Shown: one piece after another, positions 4,367 to 52,249 of the stretch
How the letters are laid out: every line of letters begins with the position of its first letter
Position numbering within the stretch: the first letter of the stretch is position 1
NCBI RefSeq assembly: GCF_003010965.1
Contig: NZ_PGGM01000013.1
Location: forward strand, 124,001-188,000
Length of the DNA: 64,000 nucleotides
Reading direction: 5' to 3'
Origin: Phyllobacterium sophorae
Lineage (GTDB): Bacteria > Pseudomonadota > Alphaproteobacteria > Rhizobiales > Rhizobiaceae
The notes under the pieces: generated by a model
Databases searched by the model: none
Seen by the model: only the letters and a program-made list of their open reading frames with translations
What the model was told of the DNA's origin: nothing
Position numbers and translations under genes: made by a program

Positions 4367-4384
4367 TGCTACCATTGTAAGAAA

Positions 4385-6026: not shown

Positions 6027-6299
6027 TTGAAGTTTTTCCGTAATTTATTGCTTCTACCCGGTGTAATATTGGATATTTTTACCACGGTTCACAATGAGCG
6101 GACGAAGCTGACAGCAGCTTGGTTTAATGGGGCCTCTGTTGCGCTCTATGCCGTGGGCGGCTTGGCTCCCATGGCATCAAGTATCTACAATTCAGGCGGG
6201 CCGAACCTATTGATTGCAGGCGGCACGGTGATTTGTATTTTGGCTGCGACTGCATTACATTTATTTGCGAGACGGATCTTGAAGGGATTGAAGCCATGA
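6027..6299 (+). CDS. Small membrane protein, unknown
   Basis: A 90-residue protein with a TTG start in the predicted frame and two hydrophobic helices (roughly residues 30-50 and 60-80) ending in a basic tail, RRILKGLKP. I recognise no family. Its stop overlaps the ATG of the next small gene (ATGA), which suggests the two are translated together. The upstream terminator hairpin of bioY implies its own promoter or read-through. The start is uncertain because no good ribosome-binding site precedes the TTG. Confidence 0.5.
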   Translation: MKFFRNLLLLPGVILDIFTTVHNERTKLTAAWFNGASVALYAVGGLAPMASSIYNSGGPNLLIAGGTVICILAATALHLFARRILKGLKP

Positions 6300-6418
6300 G
6301 CTTGGAACAGTTTTTGCTTTTCATGATCATGCCAGTCGGTGGATTGGCGATGGCAGGCTTCATGATGTACATTACACGCAAAGATCGCAGAGACGATAAG
6401 CCGAAACACTCGCATTAG
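6296..6418 (+). CDS. Very small membrane protein, unknown
   Basis: A 40-residue product, MSLEQFLLFMIMPVGG onward, consisting of one hydrophobic helix (about residues 5-26) and a highly charged C-terminus with Lys, Arg, Asp and His. The ATG overlaps the previous stop codon as ATGA, which is the main support for it being real. A longer frame beginning at 6233 would overlap the preceding gene heavily and is less likely. A role as a small membrane partner of the preceding protein is an inference. Confidence 0.5.
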   Translation: MSLEQFLLFMIMPVGGLAMAGFMMYITRKDRRDDKPKHSH

Positions 6419-6429
6419 TTATTCCAGCC

Positions 6430-7356
6430 TTGTCCGACTATCCCCGCAATCTCATTGGCTATGGCCGCAATACGCCCGACCCGAAATGGCCGGGCGGCGC
6501 CAAGATCGCCGTGCAGTTCGTGGTCAATTATGAAGAGGGCGGCGAGAGCTCGATCCTCGACAATGATCCGGCATCGGAGTGCCTGCTTTCTGAGATCGTC
6601 GGGGCCCAGCCCTGGCCCGGCCAGCGCAATCTCAACATGGAATCGATCTACGAATATGGCTCGCGCGCCGGTTTCTGGCGGCTATGGCGCATGTTCACCG
6701 CTCGCAAGATGCCTGTCACCGTCTATGGCGTGACGCTCGCCATGGCGCGCAATCCCGAGGCGGTCGCGGCGATGAAAGAGGCGGATTGGGAGATTGCCAG
6801 TCATGGGCTGCGCTGGCTGGAATACAAGGATTGCCCGGAAGAACTTGAGCGTCAGCATATCCATCAAGCAGTGCGCCTGCATACGGAGATCACTGGTACG
6901 CGGCCGCTGGGCATATATCAAGGCAAGCCTTCGGACAACACGCTGAAGATCGTCATGGAGGAGGGCGGGTTTGTCTATTCCGCCGACAGCTATGCCGACG
7001 AACTGCCCTATTGGGTCGAGGGTCCGAAGGGGCCGCATCTGATCGTGCCCTATACGCTCGACGCCAATGACATGCGCTTCGCGACGCCGCAGGGTTTCAA
7101 CTCCGGCGAACAGTTCTTCACCTATCTGAAAGATACGTTCGACGTGCTCTATCGCGAGGGCAAGCAGGGCGCGCCGAAGATGATGTCGATCGGGCTGCAT
7201 TGCCGCCTCGCCGGGCGCCCGGGCCGTGCCGCCGCGCTGGAGCGGTTCCTCGATTATGTTCAACACCATGAAGAAGCCTGGATCACGCGCCGCATCGATA
7301 TTGCAAGGCACTGGCACGACCTGCATCGGCCGGAGACCCCTGCCAATTCACCCTGA
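6430..7356 (+). CDS. puuE: Cofactor-independent allantoinase PuuE
   Basis: A 308-residue polysaccharide-deacetylase-fold protein that matches the PuuE type of allantoinase, which opens the allantoin ring to allantoate. Family features include the N-terminal YPRNLIGYGRNTPDPKWPGG, the segment VVNYEEGGESSILDND, EIASHGLRW, and YSADSYADELPYW. The start is TTG at 6430, giving MSDYPRN as in homologues. It is the first gene of the purine/ureide group and is followed by a 116-base gap holding a small repeat, then allA. The metal-binding residues of true deacetylases are not all conserved in this subfamily, which fits known PuuE biology. Confidence 0.9.
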   Translation: MSDYPRNLIGYGRNTPDPKWPGGAKIAVQFVVNYEEGGESSILDNDPASECLLSEIVGAQPWPGQRNLNMESIYEYGSRAGFWRLWRMFTARKMPVTVYGVTLAMARNPEAVAAMKEADWEIASHGLRWLEYKDCPEELERQHIHQAVRLHTEITGTRPLGIYQGKPSDNTLKIVMEEGGFVYSADSYADELPYWVEGPKGPHLIVPYTLDANDMRFATPQGFNSGEQFFTYLKDTFDVLYREGKQGAPKMMSIGLHCRLAGRPGRAAALERFLDYVQHHEEAWITRRIDIARHWHDLHRPETPANSP

Positions 7357-8014: not shown

Positions 8015-9469
8015 ATGTCACAAACAATACGTTTTTTTCTCAATGGTCAAAAGCAGGAAGCCTCGGTCCGGCCGGATATGACAGTGCTGGACTGGCTGCG
8101 CAGTACGCCGCGTCTGACCGGTACCAAGGAAGGTTGCGCCGAGGGCGATTGCGGGGCTTGCTCGGTGCTGATCGGCGATCCGTGGTTCGCCCCTCGACAA
8201 ACTCAGGGTGAGGAAACGCACCATGAGGGCGAGGTTCATTACCACGCCGCCAATAGCTGCATTCTCGCCATGGGCCAGATCGACGGCCGTGCGCTGGTGA
8301 CTGTCGAGGGTCTGAAGGGCGAGCAACTGCACCCGGTGCAGGAGGCGATGGCGGAAAACGGTTCCTCGCAATGCGGCTTCTGCACGCCGGGTATCGTGAT
8401 TTCGCTGGCTGGTCTTGCGGCGGGCAAAGCCGGGGCCAATGACGACGATATTCACGATGCGCTGGCGGGCAATCTCTGCCGCTGCACCGGCTACCGGCCC
8501 ATCGTCGAAGCCGGACGCAAGGTGATTCGCGCCGGCGGCGCGAAGATCGCCGGGCCGCAGGTGGCCGCCTTCGCAAAGATCGAACCGCACGCAACGATCT
8601 CGGCTTCCGGCGCGACATTCCACCAGCCGGCTTCGCTCAATGTTCTCCTGCAGCTGCGCAAGGAGAGGCCGGAGGCGATCCTGCTCGGCGGCGGCACGGA
8701 TCTCGGCGTTGCGCTGGCGGATTATCATTCCGGCTGGGACGAGGTGGTCTCGCTTGCCCATGTGAGTGAACTGCGTGCGGTCCGCGAAACGGAAAATCAT
8801 CTGAGTTTCGGCGCTGCGGTGACGTGGGAAGAAGTGCTGGAACGGGTCGCGGGCTTCTACCCGTCCTTCGCCACGCTCATCCGCCGCTTCGGCTCGACAC
8901 AGATACGCTCCATGGGAACGATCGGCGGCAATATCGGCACGGCGAGCCCGATTGGCGATGGTCCGCCCGCGCTGATTGCGCTTGGCGCCGAGGTGGAACT
9001 TGCATCGTTGAGCGGCCATCGCTTCCTGCCGCTCGAAGACTTCTTCCTCTACTATCGCAAGACAGAATTGCGCCCCGACGAGGTGATCGCATCGGTGTCG
9101 ATCCCCAAGCCAGGCGAGGGACAGGAGTTCCGCGTCTACAAGATCTCCAAGCGTTACGATCAGGATATCTCGACAGTCTGCGCGGCATTTTCGATTGTCC
9201 GCGAGGAGGGGCAGGTGCGCAGCGCCCGCATCGCCTATGGCGGCATGGCAGCGACGCCGCAGCGCGCCGGCCAGGCGGAACAGGCACTGGTCGGCAGCAG
9301 CTTTGACCGCAAAGCAATCGACGCCTGCGCTGCTGCGATTACGGCGCAATTCAAGCCGCTCACCGACTGGCGCGGCAGCGCCGATTACCGGCTGAAGGTG
9401 GCGGCAAATCTCGCCGAGCGGTTCTGGCGCGATGTGGCTGGCGAGACCGTGGAGGTGATGGCGCTATGA
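8015..9469 (+). CDS. xdhA: Xanthine dehydrogenase iron-sulfur/FAD subunit XdhA
   Basis: A 484-residue small subunit that passes electrons from the molybdenum site to NAD+ through two [2Fe-2S] clusters and FAD. Residues C41, C46, C49 and C82 fit the plant-ferredoxin-type cluster. C120, C123, C155 and C157 (QCGFC and CRC) fit the second. The FAD domain starts near residue 205, with LLGGGTDLGV, and MGTIGGNIGTASPIGD follows. The ATG at 8015 is chosen over an upstream in-frame site at 7979 that overlaps allA. Between C49 and C82 there are about 13 residues more than I expect for homologues; this stretch coincides with a repeat insertion (see separate entry). The last codons overlap xdhB as ATGA. 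Confidence 0.93.
   Translation: MSQTIRFFLNGQKQEASVRPDMTVLDWLRSTPRLTGTKEGCAEGDCGACSVLIGDPWFAPRQTQGEETHHEGEVHYHAANSCILAMGQIDGRALVTVEGLKGEQLHPVQEAMAENGSSQCGFCTPGIVISLAGLAAGKAGANDDDIHDALAGNLCRCTGYRPIVEAGRKVIRAGGAKIAGPQVAAFAKIEPHATISASGATFHQPASLNVLLQLRKERPEAILLGGGTDLGVALADYHSGWDEVVSLAHVSELRAVRETENHLSFGAAVTWEEVLERVAGFYPSFATLIRRFGSTQIRSMGTIGGNIGTASPIGDGPPALIALGAEVELASLSGHRFLPLEDFFLYYRKTELRPDEVIASVSIPKPGEGQEFRVYKISKRYDQDISTVCAAFSIVREEGQVRSARIAYGGMAATPQRAGQAEQALVGSSFDRKAIDACAAAITAQFKPLTDWRGSADYRLKVAANLAERFWRDVAGETVEVMAL
8189..8227 (+). repeat. REP-like repeat inserted in frame within xdhA
   Basis: The segment CCCCTCGACAAACTCAGGGT and the following GAGG match a palindrome-like intergenic repeat widespread in alphaproteobacteria (its reverse reads CCTCACCCTGAGTTTGTCGA). 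It lies inside xdhA and encodes about 13 extra residues, APRQTQGEETHHE, without breaking the frame. Boundaries are approximate. Confidence 0.6.
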
Positions 9470-11775
9470 ATATCGACGCCAAGGTCGTCCACCGCAGTAT
9501 CGTCGGCAAAGGCATTGCCCATGACAGCGCCGCGCGCCATGTCTCGGGTGAGGCGAATTACATCGACGACATGCCGGAACTGCCGGGCACACTGCATGCG
9601 GCCTTTGTATTGTCGCCGGTCGCCCATGGCACGCTGAAGGGCTTTGACGCATCCGCAGCGCTGGCAGTGCAAGGCGTTGCAGGCGTCTGGTCGGCGAAAG
9701 ACGTGCCCGGACACAATGAAGTCGGGCCGATTCTTCATGGCGAGACACTCTTCGCCGAAGACATCGTCGATCATGAGGGCCGGGTGATCGCTGTCGTCGC
9801 GGCACACGATTTCGAGACGGCCTATCGCGCCGCAAAGCTGGTCAAACTGGATATCGAACCCCTGGAGCCGGTGCTCGATGTGGAAGAAGCGCATCGGCGC
9901 AGGAGCTATGTCCTGCCGCCGCAGGAGGTTATCGACGGTGACGTCGATACCGCCCTGGCCAGGGCGCCGCACGTGTTTTCCGGCAAGCTGCGCATGGGCG
10001 GGCAGGATCATTTCTACCTGGAAACCCACATCGCCTATGCCATTCCCGGCGAGAACGGCGAAATGCTCGTGCATTCCTCGACGCAGCACCCAACCGAGGT
10101 GCAGCACCACGTAGCGGGTATTCTTGGCATCCACGCCAATGCAGTGGAATGCCAGGTGCGCCGCATGGGCGGGGGGTTCGGCGGCAAGGAAAGCCAGCCG
10201 ACGATCATCGCCGGTGCCGCGGCGCTGATCGCGGCCAAGACCGGCAAGCCTTGCAAGATGAGGCTGAAGCGCCGCGATGATATGGCGGGGACGGGCAAGC
10301 GCCACGACTACGTCGCCAATTGGAAGGTCGGGGTGGACAACCGGGGCCGCATTCTCGGCCTCGATGTTGAGTATCTGGCGCGGGCCGGCAATCTGCCGGA
10401 TCTGACCGGGCCCGTTATCACCCGTACACTCACCCATACCGATAATTCTTACCACATTCCCCATGCGCGCTTCATCGGCCATGCCTGCAAGACCAACACT
10501 GTCTCCAACACGGCGTTTCGCGGCTTTGGCGGGCCGCAGGGCATTATCACCATCGAATGCGTTATCGATACGATCGCCCGTGAGTTGAAGCTCGACCCCA
10601 ACAATGTCCGCGCCATCAACTACTATGGCGAAGATACGGGGGACATGACCCCCTACGGCCAGAAGGTCGAGGACAATCGTCTTGTCGAGGTGACGCAGGC
10701 GGTTATGGCTTCGGCTGACTGGCAGCGCCGCCGCGCGACAATCGATGCGCACAATTCAGAAAATCCGGTGATCCGGCGCGGACTGGCGATGATGCCGGTC
10801 AAGTTCGGTATCTCGTTCAATCTGACATCGCTCAATCAGGCCGGTGCGCTGGTGCACGTCTATCTGGACGGGTCGATCTTCCTCAATCATGGCGGCACGG
10901 AAATGGGGCAGGGCCTTTTCGTCAAGGTTGCGCAGGTCGTTGCCGAGGTGTTTCAGGTAGACCTCGATATGGTGCGTATCTCTTCGACCGCTACCGGCAA
11001 GGTACCGAACACCAGTGCGACGGCTGCCTCTACCGGCTCGGACCTGAATGGCATGGCCGCCTTCAAGGCGGCGACGGCCATCAAGGCGCGCATGACGAGG
11101 GTAGCGGCCGAGCATTTCGATGTGGAAGAGGACGTGATCGTTTATCGCGAAAGCCGGGTCCACGCCGGTAACGAATCGATTTCGTTCGGTGAACTGGCGA
11201 AAATGGCCTGGGCCAAGAGGGTTCAGCTTTCAGAAGCCGGACACTATGCGACGCCGAAAATACACTGGGATGGCAAGACGATGAAGGGCCGGCCCTTCTT
11301 CTATTTCAGTTACGGCGCGGCGGTGGCGGAAGTCGCGATCGATACGCTGACCGGCGAAACGCGCTGCCTGCGCGCCGACATTCTGCAGGATGTCGGCTCG
11401 CCGCTGAACCCAGCCATCGATCTTGGCCAGATCGAAGGTGCTTTCGTGCAAGGCATGGGGTGGGTGACGTGCGAGGAACTGTGGTGGGACAAGTCCGGGC
11501 GCCTGCGGACCGTCGGGCCATCGACTTACAAGATACCGGGATCGCGCGACGTGCCGCCGGAATTCAATGTCCGTATTCTCGACAATATGCCGAACCGGGA
11601 GGAGACTGTGTTCCGTTCCAAGGCGATCGGCGAGCCGCCGCTGATGCTGGGCATTTCGGTCTGGCTCGCCATTCGTGACGCCATCGCTTCGATGAGAGGC
11701 GGGGTGCCGCAGCTGGACTCCCCGGCAACGCCGGAAAATGTCCTGCGTTCAATAAGGGCAAGCATGAAGAGTTGA
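9466..11775 (+). CDS. xdhB: Xanthine dehydrogenase molybdopterin subunit XdhB
   Basis: A 769-residue catalytic subunit that hydroxylates hypoxanthine and xanthine to urate at a molybdenum centre. Visible signatures are RRMGGGFGGKE for cofactor binding, TAFRGFGGPQG, HGGTEMGQG, and KAIGEPPLMLG near the C-terminus, which contains the catalytic Glu. The length is normal for bacterial XdhB. It overlaps xdhA by four bases and is followed 12 bases later by uraD. The XdhC insertion chaperone is not encoded next to it, so it must lie elsewhere. Confidence 0.95.
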   Translation: MNIDAKVVHRSIVGKGIAHDSAARHVSGEANYIDDMPELPGTLHAAFVLSPVAHGTLKGFDASAALAVQGVAGVWSAKDVPGHNEVGPILHGETLFAEDIVDHEGRVIAVVAAHDFETAYRAAKLVKLDIEPLEPVLDVEEAHRRRSYVLPPQEVIDGDVDTALARAPHVFSGKLRMGGQDHFYLETHIAYAIPGENGEMLVHSSTQHPTEVQHHVAGILGIHANAVECQVRRMGGGFGGKESQPTIIAGAAALIAAKTGKPCKMRLKRRDDMAGTGKRHDYVANWKVGVDNRGRILGLDVEYLARAGNLPDLTGPVITRTLTHTDNSYHIPHARFIGHACKTNTVSNTAFRGFGGPQGIITIECVIDTIARELKLDPNNVRAINYYGEDTGDMTPYGQKVEDNRLVEVTQAVMASADWQRRRATIDAHNSENPVIRRGLAMMPVKFGISFNLTSLNQAGALVHVYLDGSIFLNHGGTEMGQGLFVKVAQVVAEVFQVDLDMVRISSTATGKVPNTSATAASTGSDLNGMAAFKAATAIKARMTRVAAEHFDVEEDVIVYRESRVHAGNESISFGELAKMAWAKRVQLSEAGHYATPKIHWDGKTMKGRPFFYFSYGAAVAEVAIDTLTGETRCLRADILQDVGSPLNPAIDLGQIEGAFVQGMGWVTCEELWWDKSGRLRTVGPSTYKIPGSRDVPPEFNVRILDNMPNREETVFRSKAIGEPPLMLGISVWLAIRDAIASMRGGVPQLDSPATPENVLRSIRASMKS

Positions 11776-12655: not shown

Positions 12656-12684
12656 CTTTGAAGGATGCAGAATTGAGCACCGAT

Positions 12685-12811
12685 TATCTCCCCCCTTGCG
12701 GGGAGAGAGGGGGAAACGCACCATCAAAATCCCTTCTCTTGGATTTTCTAAGGATTTAGCAAAGCGGCTAAATCCAAGAAAATCCTTTCTCTCCCACAAG
12801 GGGGAGAGATA
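12685..12811. repeat. Paired-arm palindromic repeat, copy 1
   Basis: The element begins TATCTCCCCCCTTGCGGGGA and ends with a CCCACAAGGGGGAGAGATA hairpin. The right arm carries the A-type inner hairpin (GGATTTTCTAAGGATTTAGC paired with GCTAAATCCAAGAAAATCC). The left arm is truncated to its outer hairpin. It sits between the convergent uraH and DUF2793 genes, where it could also act as a transcription barrier. Confidence 0.85.
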
Positions 12812-12830
12812 ATCGGCACCGTCTATTTCT

Positions 12831-14442: not shown

Positions 14443-16311
14443 ATGAAATTGGAAAATTTTCGGCAAAGCATCTCGATGATGCCGCGTCGTTACAAGCAAC
14501 TGATCCTTGTCGCTTTCGACGTGGTCACGCTGACATTCGCCGTTTGGCTCAGCTATCTGTTGAGATTCAGTGCGTTTTTCATACCGAACAGCGAGCAGGC
14601 CCTGTTGATGGTTGCTGCGCCGATGATCGGCCTGCCGGTATTCGTCCGTTTCGGCCTCTATCGTTCGGTAATCCGCTATCTGCCTGACAAGGCAATCTGG
14701 ACGATGATCCAGGCGGTAACAATATCCGTGATTCTGTGGGTCTGCCTCGCGTTCCTGACGCTGATGACCGGCGCCGAAGGTGTGCCCCGTGCGATTCCAT
14801 TCCTCTATTGGGTCTTGAGCATCGGCCTTATCTGCGGCAGCAGGTTCGCTGCCAAATGGATATTGTGGAGCTCGCTTCGCCAGCAGCTCATGGAGAGACA
14901 ATGTCTCATTTTCGGGGCGGGTGATGCGGGCCGCCAATTGGCCAATGCGCTCAGGAGCCAGAACGAGGTTTTTGTGGCCGGCTTTGTCGATGATGACAAA
15001 AGCCTTCACGGCATGGATATCCTCGGTATCCGCGTCTACCCGACGTCGCAGCTCGAGACGCTGATCGATAATTTCGGCATAAACGAGATGATCGTGACCA
15101 CATCTGCCTTAAGCGGCATTCAGCGCCGCAGATTGATTGGCAAGCTGAAGGCTCTCGACGTCAAGGTGCGGATCTTGCCGGCGATTTCCGACCTGACGGC
15201 CGGTAAATATCTTGTCAGCCATCTGCGCGATATCGATATTGACGATCTGCTTGGCCGTTCGCCGGTGCCCGCAGACCCAAGCCTGCTCGACAAGACCGTG
15301 GAGGACCGGGTCATCCTCGTCACCGGCGCCGGCGGATCGATCGGTTCGGAGCTTTGCCGCACCATCGTCAAGCTTGCTCCGGCCAAGCTGGTGATTTTCG
15401 ACGTCAACGAGCACGGTATTTACCAGCTTCAACGGGAACTGACGGCAATCAGTGATTGCGTGATCGTGCCCGTCCTCGGTTCGATCAGCGACGCGGCATT
15501 GATCAAGTCCGTCCTTGCCGAGCACAAGGTGGAGAACGTCTATCATTGCGCCGCATACAAGCACGTTCCCCTGGTCGAAGAGAATGTTGTTGAGGGCGCT
15601 CGCAACAATGTGCTCGGCACGGATGTATTGGCCGGTATGTCCCGCGAAGCTGGCGTTCGCAATTTTGTTCTCATCTCGTCCGACAAGGCAGTCCGGCCGT
15701 CGAATGTCATGGGGGCGACGAAGCGGTGGGCTGAGCTGATCGTGCGCTATCATGGCAATATAGCGAGCGAACAAGGCACCGGGCAGATCTTTGCTTCGGT
15801 CCGTTTCGGCAATGTGATCGGGTCGAGCGGTTCAGTCGTGCCGTTGTTTCGCGAACAGATCGCGCATGGGGGTCCGTTGACCGTAACGCATGACGACATG
15901 ACGCGGTATTTCATGTCCGTGCGCGAAGCCGCAGAACTGATCATCCAGGCCGGGGCGCTTTCCGAGGGCGGCGATATTCTGCTGCTTGAGATGGGCGAGG
16001 CGGTTCGCATACGCGACCTGGCCGAAAACATGATCCTGTTGGCCGGGCTATCGGTCAAGGATGCCGCACACCCAGAAGGCGACATCGAAATCGTTACCGT
16101 GGGAATACGTGATGGCGAAAAGCTGCACGAGGAGCTGTTCTACGATCCCGTTGGCGTTGCACCGACGATCCATTCGAAAATTCTCCGTGCCAGGCGCAGT
16201 GTCAATTCCGTCGGTCACTTGCCCGAAGCGGTCGCTGAATTGCGCCGGCTGATCGATGAGCGGGACACGGAAGCGGTTCGCAAGCTGCTGTTCGAGGGCG
16301 CGAGCGCTTAG
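14443..16311 (+). CDS. NDP-sugar 4,6-dehydratase/epimerase, membrane-bound (WbpM/CapD type)
   Basis: A 622-residue polysaccharide biosynthesis protein, probably a UDP-N-acetylhexosamine 4,6-dehydratase acting at the inner membrane. Four or five membrane helices occupy about residues 20-150. A CoA-binding-like nucleotide domain follows (LIFGAGDAGRQLANAL), then a short-chain dehydrogenase domain with VTGAGGSIGSELCR, and SSDKAVRPSNVMGATKR. There the usual Tyr of the YxxxK site is replaced by Met, as in the WbpM/FlaA1 family. The ATG at 14443 follows a GAGGAT ribosome-binding site. It forms a surface-glycan group with the two genes downstream. Confidence 0.88.
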   Translation: MKLENFRQSISMMPRRYKQLILVAFDVVTLTFAVWLSYLLRFSAFFIPNSEQALLMVAAPMIGLPVFVRFGLYRSVIRYLPDKAIWTMIQAVTISVILWVCLAFLTLMTGAEGVPRAIPFLYWVLSIGLICGSRFAAKWILWSSLRQQLMERQCLIFGAGDAGRQLANALRSQNEVFVAGFVDDDKSLHGMDILGIRVYPTSQLETLIDNFGINEMIVTTSALSGIQRRRLIGKLKALDVKVRILPAISDLTAGKYLVSHLRDIDIDDLLGRSPVPADPSLLDKTVEDRVILVTGAGGSIGSELCRTIVKLAPAKLVIFDVNEHGIYQLQRELTAISDCVIVPVLGSISDAALIKSVLAEHKVENVYHCAAYKHVPLVEENVVEGARNNVLGTDVLAGMSREAGVRNFVLISSDKAVRPSNVMGATKRWAELIVRYHGNIASEQGTGQIFASVRFGNVIGSSGSVVPLFREQIAHGGPLTVTHDDMTRYFMSVREAAELIIQAGALSEGGDILLLEMGEAVRIRDLAENMILLAGLSVKDAAHPEGDIEIVTVGIRDGEKLHEELFYDPVGVAPTIHSKILRARRSVNSVGHLPEAVAELRRLIDERDTEAVRKLLFEGASA

Positions 16312-25170: not shown

Positions 25171-25178
25171 ACGCTGGC

Positions 25179-25355
25179 TATCTCTCCACTTGCGGGAGAG
25201 AAAGGATTTTCCTGGATTTAGCTTCTTTGCTAGATCCTTGGAAAATCCAAGTGAGGGGGTAGTCAGTGAGGCAAATCCCCTCTCTTGCGATTTCTGGCAC
25301 CTGAGCGAAGGGCTCAAGGTGCTGAAATCGCTTTCTCCCCCACAAGGGGGAGATA
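25179..25355. repeat. Paired-arm palindromic repeat, copy 2
   Basis: A complete element: outer TATCTCTCCACTTGCGGGAGA hairpin with A-type inner hairpin (GGATTTTCCTGG to CCTTGGAAAATCC) on the left. A short linker between GAGGGGG and CCCCTCTC follows. The B-type arm (GCGATTTCTGGCACC to GGTGCTGAAATCGC) with CCCACAAGGGGGAGATA closes the right end. It separates cysNC from cysQ on the same strand. Confidence 0.88.
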
Positions 25356-27251: not shown

Positions 27252-27497
27252 TTATCTCCCTTGTGGGAAGCACGCTGCCCTTATCTCCCCCCTTGTGGGG
27301 GAGAAAGCGATTTCAACATCTTAGCGTCAGATAAGTGTTAGAAATCGCAAGAGAGGGGATTTCGATGGTACGCTTCAAATCCCCTCTCTTGAGTTTTCCA
27401 AGGATTTAGCGAAGAGGCTAAATCCAGGAAAACTCTTTCTCTCCCGCAAGGGGAGAGATAAGGCGCCCGGGCCCGCCTTCGGCCACCAGGGGGAGAT
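27252..27497. repeat. Paired-arm palindromic repeat, copy 3, nested in an older copy
   Basis: The main element runs from 27282 (TATCTCCCCCCTTGTGGGGG) to 27460 (GGGGAGAGATA). It has a B-type left arm (GCGATTTCAACATC to TGTTAGAAATCGC), a linker ATTTCGATGGTACGCTTCAA, and an A-type right arm. Outside it, the fragments TATCTCCCTTGTGGG (left) and CCACCAGGGGGAGATA (right) look like the ends of a second, interrupted copy. It lies inside the importer operon. Confidence 0.8.
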
Positions 27498-29325: not shown

Positions 29326-29550
29326 GTATGTAAAGGGATTCTGTTTGCCGGTGATCAAGAAATCACTGGATGGAATTGGCAGATGAGGGAGGGTTCGGGT
29401 GTTCATGCCTGCCCACTTGTCAGGACAGGAATCAGGAACGCACGCGAGATATAGCCGCTATCCGGCAGCCCCGTACGTCCGGGCCCTCGTCAGCGGTAAA
29501 CATCGCATCGCTCCCGGCACACCCCGTCCGGTTCGAATTTCAGGTTCGAT

Positions 29551-29729
29551 GGCAGGTCTCCTGGCTCGCGGGTCTCGGCTTCGCCTTGCCTTCCCGGCTC
29601 ATCACCAGTGGCATAGTTCAGGCGTCGCTCACCGCTTACAGTTGCGGGGGCAGCCACGGTTTCGGTCCCTATTGGGTACGCCTCACCGTGTTCCCTTTTC
29701 ATCTCCGGCGTTGTCTTGCCGAAGAAACC
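29551..29729 (-). promoter_or_regulatory. Cobalamin riboswitch
   Basis: On the minus strand the aptamer shows the full set of conserved elements in order: AGGGAACACGGTG, GGCTGCCCCCGCAACTGTAAG (the core up to 29633-29656), GCCACTGG followed by GCCGGGAAGGC, and the B12 box GCCAGGAGACCTGCC at the 3' end. It is placed to control the ABC importer genes downstream and would lower their expression when adenosylcobalamin is plentiful. No clear terminator was identified in the 300-base expression platform. Confidence 0.93.
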
Positions 29730-29794
29730 ATCAGTACCGATCAATAGAGGAAAAAATGCTCAAAGCAATCAGTTTCATTTGCCTCGATGGCGCT

Positions 29795-30325
29795 TATCTC
29801 CCCCCTTGCGGGGGAGAAAGCGATTTCAGCATCTTAGCCCTTGCCAAGTGCTAGAAATCGCCCGAGAGGGGAATGTGAACTCCGCTTCGTCGCTTGTTGG
29901 CTTCGTGTAGAATCTGCGAACATACCCCGTCCAGATTGCGAATGATCTCATCGTTCCAGAAGCGCAGCGTTTTGAAACTTGATGCGTTCAAACATTTATC
30001 GCGTTCCACATCTGAGTTGGACCCTGAATGTTGACTCCCATCCAGTTCTATAATCAGCCTTGATCTGAAGCAGGCGAAATCCACTATGTAGCCGAGAAGC
30101 GGCGCTTGCCGTTTGAATTTCAAACCGCCCAATTGATTGTTTCGGATTGCTTGCCACAGGATGTTCTCCGCCAAAGTTGCATCCCTGCGCATTTTCCGCG
30201 CGTATGTTCGAATGATTGGAGGTGTGTCTTGACGGATCTCTCAATCCCCTCTCTTGGATTTTCCAAGGATTTAGCAAAGAGGCTAAATCCAGGAAAATCC
30301 TTTCTCCCCCACAAAGGGGGAGATA
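29795..30325. mobile_element. Paired-arm repeat carrying a DUF559 gene
   Basis: The left arm (29795-29871) is the B type: TATCTCCCCCCTTGCGGGGG hairpin, then GCGATTTCAGCATC to GTGCTAGAAATCGC, ending GAGAGGGG. The right arm (30246-30325) is the A type: CCCCTCTC, GGATTTTCCAAGGATTTAGC to GCTAAATCCAGGAAAATCC, ending CCACAAAGGGGGAGATA. Elsewhere in the window the arms are joined by a linker of about 20-40 bases. Here 374 bases with a DUF559 gene lie between them. It looks like a full-length element of which the others are short derivatives, or a gene captured by a repeat. Confidence 0.65.
29851..30192 (-). CDS. DUF559 endonuclease-like protein
   Basis: A 113-residue protein of the DUF559 family, related to the very-short-patch-repair (Vsr-like) nucleases. 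The order AENILWQAIRNNQLGGLKF, YIVDFACFRSRLIIELDGSQH and TLRFWNDEIIRN is typical, including the acidic residues (D in VDFAC, E and D in IELDGSQH) that form the nuclease-like centre. The frame remains open for about 17 codons upstream of the ATG, encoding residues that also look like DUF559 (PPIIRTYARK), so a non-standard upstream start is possible. The last residues and stop codon are encoded by the left repeat arm. The gene lies wholly inside the repeat element. Confidence 0.8.
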   Translation of the reverse strand: MRRDATLAENILWQAIRNNQLGGLKFKRQAPLLGYIVDFACFRSRLIIELDGSQHSGSNSDVERDKCLNASSFKTLRFWNDEIIRNLDGVCSQILHEANKRRSGVHIPLSGDF

Positions 30326-30575
30326 AGCGGTGCCCTTAAGTTATGCGCTAACTGTCGCTCGGTTTAATGCGAGCGGCAACGAATGCAAGGTTGCATTGTT
30401 GTGAACAGCATGACGTTGCGGGTTGTGGGTCGACTGGCCGCTGCACGCTTGTAAATGCGGCAAATTCTAATTGTGCTAAAATATTTGGCAGAGCCGCATT
30501 TAAAGACGTGAACTGCGCAATAGAGTACGCTAGGTTTCTCGGGAACGCGCATTTAGAAGAACAATTTGAGGCGAC
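30193..30575. other. Right repeat arm and leader of the transglutaminase cluster
   Basis: This stretch of about 380 bases includes the right arm of the DUF559 element (30246-30325) and about 250 bases of AT-richer leader before the DUF2126 gene. The leader probably contains the promoter for the three-gene cluster. No small gene or RNA is apparent. Confidence 0.5.
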
Positions 30576-52012: not shown

Positions 52013-52059
52013 GGTGTTCTCCTGAAGTTTGTTCATTTGTATCGTATTTGGCCGCCGCT

Positions 52060-52233
52060 TATCTCCCCCTTTGTGGGGGAGAAAGGATTTTCTTGAATTT
52101 AGCCCTTCGCTAAATTCTTAGAAAATCCCAGAGAGGGGGTAGTCTGTTTGGCAAATCCCCTCTCTTGCGATTTCTAGCACTTAGCAAGGGCTAAGGTGCT
52201 GAAATCGCTTTCTCTCCCACAAGGGGAGAGATA
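52060..52233. repeat. Paired-arm palindromic repeat, copy 4
   Basis: The left arm has TATCTCCCCCTTTGTGGGGG and the A-type hairpin (GGATTTTCTTGAATTTAGC to CTAAATTCTTAGAAAATCC). A linker TAGTCTGTTTGGCAAA follows, then the B-type right arm (GCGATTTCTAGCACTTAGC to GCTAAGGTGCTGAAATCGC) ending in GGGGAGAGATA. It lies between betA and betB inside the operon. Confidence 0.88.
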
Positions 52234-52249
52234 ACCAGCACCGTTTCAC

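Follow-up and report, generated by a model that had tools for sequence, protein, structure and literature searches.

A DUF559 nuclease gene enclosed by twin hairpin arms in Phyllobacterium sophorae: a probable small mobile element with gene-less derivatives

A DUF559 gene and the two hairpin arms that enclose it in Phyllobacterium sophorae probably make up one small mobile element (~0.55 kb in this case), which would act by the mechanism proposed below. Comparison of genomes indicates that the gene and its arms form a unit, that this unit and its short derivatives are dispersed, that the hairpins are maintained, and that the families of arms are largely lineage-specific. The short, gene-less copies are best read as non-autonomous derivatives of an element composed of a nuclease gene and hairpin ends, and we infer that DUF559 is the enzyme that mobilizes the repeats. 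The element lies in a 64,000-nucleotide stretch of DNA (hereafter the window), to which all coordinates refer unless another locus is named.

Structure of the Element

The whole element (TTATC...GATAA) spans 533 bp (29794..30326, unstranded); pairing reaches 29791-30329, and homology to a related locus, L019, covers the same 29791-30329. Two mirror-image arms of ~80 nt (29794-29871 and 30246-30326) enclose the DUF559 gene, and each consists of an outer hairpin (TTATCTCYCCC-loop-GGGRGAGAAAG), a second hairpin and an inward GAGGGG tail. In the left arm (plus strand) the outer hairpin, TTATCTCCCCC-CTTGCG-GGGGGAGAAAG (29794..29820), is the same helix as helix 1 of the short-copy alignment, and the second hairpin, of A type (GCGATTTC...GAAATCGC, 29820..29861), is the same as helix 2 and contains the DUF559 stop codon; the tail CCGAGAGGGG, read from the sequence, faces the gene (29862..29871). 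The nuclease ORF (PF04480; 113 aa from the ATG, 29851..30192, minus strand) is defined by the Pfam match, alignments and a structure model. The right arm (minus strand) begins with its inward tail (GAGAGGGG on the minus strand, 30246..30253, also read from the sequence), followed by a second hairpin of B type (GGATTTTCC...GGAAAATCC, 30256..30300), the same helix as helix 4 of the alignment, and by the outer hairpin (30301..30326), which was located from the sequence and an inverted-repeat search. The inverted repeat 29791-29827 / 30293-30329 (37 nt, 86%) is the outer part of these longer arms.

The gapped inverted-repeat score of the window arms is 34, against a mean of 9.5 and a maximum of 14.5 in 200 controls with shuffled flanks, which confirms the nesting of the gene between two repeat arms reported in the preliminary description. 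The stop codon does lie in the left arm, as had been stated, with 29851-29853 inside the second hairpin. It falls within the aligned 3' arm in 16 of the 48 enclosed loci examined, so coding end and arm often overlap. A cobalamin riboswitch is located directly to the left of the element (window 29534-29747, minus strand).

The DUF559 Protein

The window ORF matches Pfam DUF559 with an E-value of 4.8e-37, and residues E9, D38, E49, D51, H55, D61 and R77 are invariant in both protein alignments. Their role is presumed by analogy with PD-(D/E)XK enzymes, and their conservation is consistent with an active nuclease. Among four DUF559 proteins searched for a known transposase domain none was found, DUF559 and the related MTES_1575 models being the sole matches. 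The AlphaFold model of the window protein has a mean pLDDT of 81.5 and a pTM of 0.75, with residues 55-57, including the invariant H55, below 50. Its best fold match is 3HRL, an endonuclease-like protein of Neisseria gonorrhoeae (E 5.8e-9) that is also the best PDB sequence match, followed by the homing endonuclease I-Bth0305I (Foldseek E 1.3e-4, TM 0.68/0.77); Escherichia coli Vsr ranks 15th (E 0.27, TM 0.50). The core is Vsr-like, as proposed earlier, but Vsr is not the nearest structural neighbor of the model; a solved DUF559 structure and I-Bth0305I come first.

The reading frame stays open for 16 codons 5' of the ATG (30193-30240, minus strand) and encodes residues shared with relatives (..RTYARK), but this extension holds no ATG, GTG or TTG. 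Translation may thus begin at a rare codon, or else the protein may have lost its N-terminus.

Gene-less Short Copies

Four further copies of the element, all gene-less and unstranded, lie in the window; the earlier count was three, and one of the four is truncated. The truncated copy (12684..12812) lacks part of its left arm here, whereas the copy of the closest relative has both arms. The others have a B arm followed by an A arm (25175..25355), an A arm followed by a B arm (27281..27461), and, at 52059..52234, a counterpart in the closest relative that is an empty site (L239, genome G018).

Short copies were matched 35 times in this and related genomes, and 34 of them could be oriented with the A arm first. 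These 34 measure 174-196 bp with a tail-to-tail linker of 17-25 nt, which is short, as claimed, but below the 20-40 bases first given. The inward GAGGGG tail is conserved in the aligned copies. In 15 short copies the five helices are 98.6% paired, and both-sided changes occur in 9 of 56 pairs, a value reached by none of 500 shuffles; the number of further pair types (18), one of five covariation measures, is not above that of the shuffles (20.2). Because related copies inflate covariation tests, weight was put on specific C-G/T-A exchanges, which are seen at three helix pairs in 7, 6 and 5 of the 15 copies. Folded as single-stranded DNA, the copy at 27281 reaches -64.2 kcal/mol (z -13.5). The linkers (alignment columns 83-106) are very variable despite the conserved arms, with a few linker types common to several copies, and this variability is not explained by simple copying.

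Enclosure of DUF559 Genes in Related Genomes

The genome of the window has two DUF559 genes, the second of which (L002) is enclosed by the same kind of arms. Within the genus, DUF559 is present in 16 of 20 genomes (0-3 genes per genome; 26 matches, one with an internal stop). Bilateral arms with scores of 24-71.5 are found at 7 of these 26 genes, and the other 19 score 13 or less. A CTCCC/TCTCC hairpin lies at most 200 bp from 24/26 of the genes vs. 9/65 control ORFs (p 1.6e-12), a conservative test, since the control stretches were picked around short copies; it stands on the 5' side in 21/26 and on the 3' side in 10/26. Seventeen of the 19 genes without bilateral arms have a one-sided hairpin repeat and two (L009 and L020) have none; by eye, the repeats beside the one-sided genes are different repeats. 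Several of the 19 share neighbors and seem to have been inherited vertically.

The arm pattern matches 14 of 19 genus genomes (1-71 matches each) and its reversed control none; among the matches listed, arms pair at ~136-153 bp from start to start. Enclosed DUF559 genes occur in 6 of the 10 genus genomes with at least 10 arm matches vs. 0 of the 9 with fewer (p 0.011, at a cut that was chosen after the counts were seen). Genome G004, which has 71 arm matches and no enclosed DUF559 gene, counts against a link between nuclease and repeat.

Beyond the genus, bilateral inverted repeats were scored within 300 bp of each gene and called at a score of at least 15. The genes sampled were hand-picked down the listed matches, ranked by E-value, for contig room and before their flanks were seen, and several come from the same genome. 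Enclosure was found for 14/20 DUF559 genes of the order vs. 4/217 ORFs in the same stretches (up to 20 kb), or 0/63 ORFs with 60-bp gaps on both sides; for 19/20 in other orders of the class vs. 5/221 (2/74 with such gaps); and for 12/20 in other classes of the phylum vs. 8/205 (1/57). At a score of at least 20, the respective counts are 13/20, 15/20 and 10/20 vs. 1/217, 0/221 and 0/205. Of the 30 top-scoring loci of the order, 3 had flanks too short to score and 17 of the other 27 are enclosed; the figure for the phylum is 13/22. Five multi-copy genomes give 21/25, with 2 of 27 loci dropped and two loci in common with the sample of 20. ParE toxin genes, an imperfect control because they usually have a partner gene beside them, are enclosed in 0/26 cases (4 of 30 dropped). 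Taken together, the ORF, ParE and shuffle controls rule out chance or base composition as the source of the arms around DUF559.

A DUF559 match at an E-value of 0.001 or better, in some cases weak, is present in 145 of 398 phylum genomes sampled. Among the 80 named public loci most similar to the window protein, 73 have enough flank, of which 48 score at least 17 (one of them an N-run artifact) and 25 score below. The enclosed loci include Mesorhizobium, Azospirillum, Luteimonas, Caulobacter and a Devosia MAG with arms like those of the window, as well as a Legionella anisa locus with 147-nt arms; MAGs filed as Nitrospirae, Melainabacteria and Desulfuromonadales, labels that may be wrong, are also enclosed. 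Both Haemophilus parainfluenzae loci and several from Mesorhizobium and Rhizobium fall below 17. As to the possibility that DUF559 genes of relatives rarely accompany such arms, the association is frequent and far above the ORF and ParE controls, but in the genus it is bilateral only in the minority given above.

Many arms share the plan of two hairpins plus tail. Both tails point toward the gene in 1/26 DUF559 loci of the genus, 6/27 top loci of the order and 8/20, 12/20 and 4/20 loci of the three samples, vs. 0/63, 0/74 and 0/57 control ORFs, as judged by a regular expression narrower than the real arms. Arms with the tail pointing away are found in the same sets at 13/26, 12/27, 6/20, 4/20 and 7/20 loci on the 5' side and at 3/26, 5/27, 8/20, 2/20 and 5/20 on the 3' side; among control ORFs, each set of 57-74 yields between 0 and 5 for any one side and direction. 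Arm direction was thus only partly useful as a signature, tail-away arms being common beside DUF559 as well, in part a consequence of the twin arrangement of the arms.

Co-occurrence of Arms and DUF559 Across Genomes

Matches to a generic arm pattern (TCTCCC-loop-GGGAGA-3 to 33 nt-GAGGGG) were tallied in the 297 genomes of this order that had been searched for DUF559, and single genomes hold up to hundreds of them. Genomes were taken as DUF559-positive at a best E-value of 1e-9 or better, and 12 with only weak matches were counted as negative. On this definition, at least four arm matches are present in 110/140 genomes with DUF559 vs. 15/157 without (OR 34.7, p 4e-36), and cuts at 1, 10 and 20 matches give ORs of 29-37. 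When the labels were permuted within families, the observed 110 was never reached in 5000 permutations (mean 90.9). The presence of arms is statistically dependent on DUF559. The reversed control pattern is absent from 286/297 genomes; in one genome, G291, its matches and those of the pattern itself are roughly equal in number. The genome of the window has only two matches, as the generic pattern misses most of its own arm family, and was counted as arm-poor. At least 10 arms occur in 7/157 genomes without a strong DUF559 match (G314, G023, G024, G242 and G271, plus G149 and G244, which have weak matches).

Y1 transposases are present in 29/297 genomes of the order, and at least four arms are found in 11/29 of these vs. 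114/268 of the rest (OR 0.83, p 0.70); the genome of the window has no match to PF01797 at an E-value of 1e-9. Since arms are associated with DUF559 and not with Y1, the repeats follow DUF559 rather than RAYT/IS200-type genes, and co-occurrence lends no support to RAYT/IS200 enzymes as movers in this order.

Arms and Protein Lineages

The arms of 85 enclosed loci with a score of at least 20 were compared with their proteins. At a protein identity of 0.4-0.6, mean arm similarity is 0.26-0.30 between different genomes and 0.30 within the same genome (32 pairs); above 0.6 it rises to 0.64 (different genomes, 48 pairs) and 0.72 (same genome, 7 pairs). Over all pairs, the mean is 0.36 within genomes (44 pairs) vs. 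0.27. For the most part, then, paralogues that share a genome retain distinct arms. Between different genomes the correlation (Spearman rho 0.15, Mantel p 0.005) is carried by pairs above 60% identity; its weakness is explained by the arms of distant lineages having no more than the plan in common. Exceptions are L164/L161 (86% protein identity, arms 0.28) and L181/L169 (45%, same genome, arms 0.82). Unrelated histories of arms and gene, raised earlier as a possibility, are thus disfavored in that the arms follow DUF559 similarity more than the genome, with the reservation that the correlation is weak and has exceptions.

Filled and Empty Sites

The window element (L001) shares 92.8% identity with L019 of the closest relative, G018, along a 540-bp stretch matching the extent of the element, and BLAST found no match between their flanks; by eye, a stretch of ~26 nt located ~40 nt outside the right end is alike in the two. 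Similarly, G266 contains three copies of DUF559 plus arms (91-94% identity over 577-635 bp) with unrelated flanks, and G312 two copies of a 931-bp stretch (95%), in which the arms are direct repeats within a more complex array. The seven enclosed elements of the genus occupy six sites, one of which is shared by L014 and L019. A gene that we take to be ttcA has L002 on one side and L006 on the other; the names transglutaminase and GFA-type gene are likewise presumptive, assigned by sequence recognition.

All 18 relatives lack both the element and any arm at the window locus, and the gene was not found there without arms. Downstream of the ttcA-like gene (the L002 site), the element is present in 0 of 18 others, with the neighborhood rearranged in some. 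In G013 (L283, L284) the ttcA-like gene beside the DUF559 element matches in two different frames. The place of the window element is occupied in G018 by a block of ~324 bp (L207 974-1298), a stretch of which (GTGTCCAGCTCGTCCGGGTC...) also flanks the L019 and L004 elements. These two both adjoin an alike 96-bp stretch, apparently the same block as that at the window locus of relatives. The block may thus be another repeat or a small-RNA gene, and it may be an insertion hot spot.

Gene-less copies are also polymorphic. The short copy at 52059 is absent from G018, whose site reads ...GCCGCCGCTTATCTATCACTTACC, and where the site is filled, TTATC borders the insert at either end. A short copy of G018 is missing from the window near 4380. 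Among the copies of G004, that at 96267 is missing in G001, G010 and G017 and that at 148489 in G010, with imprecise junctions, and that at 66387 is missing in G017 and represented in G010 by a single outer hairpin. In filled/empty pairs, TTATC on both sides is thus seen in one (52059 vs. L239), boundaries elsewhere are mostly imprecise, and no general target duplication was seen; that insertion favors a TTATC-like site is a guess from one site.

L234 contains a lone outer hairpin (7091-7119; TTATCTCCCCC-CGCAAC-GGGGGAGATAA) where G004 has a full two-arm copy, and this could be an excision scar, a deletion product or a precursor. At the position of a G004 short copy, G010 carries a different inverted-repeat element of ~274 bp (L235, about 6124-6399; TTAGGCCGTACACTCATTATAG...). 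G018 has, at L238 (about 10095-10250), a second twin-hairpin family (ACCCCCCTCTG...CAGAGGGGGGT) that resembles the repeat next to one of the genus's one-sided DUF559 lineages; the window lacks it at about 9469-9485. Another inverted repeat lies in these intergenic places, in L231 (about 15150-15320), L272 and L282.

A phage or plasmid origin of the element was considered and set aside: relatives of the protein are encoded in 43 plasmid records and in 2 of 50,697 phage records, all at <60% identity. Arm sequence without the gene does occur on plasmids, namely one of Rhizobium and two of Phyllobacterium zundukense, of which one matches along 180 bp that extend into both arms and the other in a single arm.

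Relation to Known Systems

The analogy with REP sequences and their RAYT transposases, drawn at the outset, fits in that the repeats form inverted pairs, many copies are gene-less, and repeat families are lineage-specific. REPtrons (REP-RAYT, TnpA_REP) are likewise built on short hairpins that carry a conserved, unpaired tag; their repeats form inverted pairs, flank a nuclease gene, belong to lineage-specific families and are patchily distributed, and many copies have no gene (PMC6006769, PMC8266576, PMC3733652). The nuclease of a REPtron is of the HuH/Y1 kind, whereas that of the DUF559 element is PD-(D/E)XK, and the tag is GTAG or CGTC rather than the GAGGGG of the DUF559 arms, which have two hairpins each. 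A further contrast with RAYT REPtrons is that the DUF559 gene seems to travel together with its arms. TIRtrons, which contain RAYT-like genes, are comparable in having a small nuclease gene between long inverted repeats and gene-less repeat families (PMC3733652), but they use a different nuclease superfamily, and the DUF559 arms in many cases follow the two-hairpin-plus-tail plan. Insertion sequences with MITE derivatives also combine long autonomous and short non-autonomous copies that share ends and are dispersed and polymorphic, and the DUF559 unit with its defined ends is similarly found at different loci; it differs from them in having no known transposase domain, no general target duplication seen, and hairpin ends instead of simple terminal inverted repeats.

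Homing endonucleases of the I-Bth0305I kind belong to introns and inteins. This subject is touched on in a paper that assigns a DUF559 gene to the family of EDxHD homing endonucleases (PMC9403480). These enzymes have the characterized fold closest to the DUF559 model, but the DUF559 gene differs in being enclosed by inverted hairpin arms and accompanied by gene-less copies. The likeness to Vsr lies in the Vsr-like core and in Caulobacter VsrA, itself a DUF559 protein, for which an SOS response when a cytosine methyltransferase is missing has been described and very short patch repair, which would nick T:G mismatches in a methylase motif, proposed (PMC12907096). The words "hairpin," "flanking," "inverted" and "palindrom" are absent from the main text of that paper. 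DUF559 also features in a prophage list (PMC8861277). The search covered the open-access literature, with subscription papers and preprints outside it, and in the parts of the sources available no description of DUF559 with palindromic repeats was found.

Alternative Explanations and Proposed Mechanism

One alternative, which we regard as unlikely, is homing into repeats: a free-standing homing-type DUF559 enzyme would cut pre-existing twin arms and be copied between them by recombination, the repeats themselves spreading otherwise. The nearest characterized fold, the EDxHD assignment cited above and the fact that gene-less repeats far outnumber filled ones argue for it. Yet at the two testable loci of the window's own genome the 18 relatives have no arms rather than empty twin arms, the homology of filled copies spans arms and gene and stops at the arm ends, and in 5/5 elements with unlike arms (L001, L004, L006, L014 and L019) the B arm is 5' and the A arm 3' of the gene, as expected for descent as a whole unit. 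A second alternative is a role in host maintenance or regulation, in which DUF559 would be a mismatch-repair (Vsr-like) or palindrome-processing enzyme and the hairpins terminators, attenuators or autoregulatory sites. The excess of 5' hairpins in the genus (21/26 vs. 10/26), the seemingly conserved loci of several lineages, the VsrA data on SOS and proposed very short patch repair (PMC12907096) and a DUF559 gene among those changed in a Deinococcus methylase study (PMC6712171) are in keeping with such a role, which is nonetheless quite improbable: it leaves unexplained the dispersed whole-unit copies, the genome-wide co-occurrence with arms and the differing arms of same-genome paralogues.

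It is more improbable still that DUF559 is a passenger, merely captured by repeats that another transposase or repair process spreads. The 7/157 genomes with at least 10 arms and no strong DUF559 match speak for this, and we know of no transposition chemistry for DUF559. Against it, the arms are not associated with Y1/RAYT-type transposases across the 297 genomes, ParE, another accessory family of small genes and an imperfect control, is never enclosed (0/26), and different DUF559 lineages are enclosed by different arm families. The preferred reading, that gene and arms are one mobile unit, has its own difficulties. Nineteen of the 26 genus genes have no bilateral arms, several of them at seemingly conserved loci; 25/73 named loci are not enclosed; 15/157 DUF559-negative genomes have at least four arms; and the Mantel correlation is weak and has exceptions, tail direction is not clean and boundaries are mostly imprecise. 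A single nuclease domain with no joining activity would, moreover, need host factors.

If gene and arms do move as one unit, the DUF559 protein, with its PD-(D/E)XK, homing-endonuclease-like fold, would recognize its own arms as folded hairpins plus GAGGGG tail and nick or cut at them. Host repair or replication would then copy or insert the unit, possibly next to a TTATC-like site. Short copies would be moved in trans, and each DUF559 lineage would serve its own arm family.

Implications

On balance, we lean toward the view that DUF559 defines an unrecognized class of bacterial mobile elements, in which a nuclease with a homing-endonuclease fold and no known transposase chemistry propagates hairpin-ended units as DNA; many alphaproteobacterial genomes may owe a large part of their CCCTCTCCC...GGGAGAGGG-type intergenic palindromes to it, as REPs are thought to come from RAYTs. 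With this, a common "domain of unknown function" would acquire a probable role together with a cognate DNA, and palindromic intergenic repeats that Y1 transposases do not explain would acquire a candidate origin. It also offers an alternative reading of the VsrA-dependent DNA damage reported in Caulobacter. If this is true, the REP-RAYT problem has been solved twice, by unrelated chemistries, and one would have to ask how a homing-type nuclease can spread hairpins.
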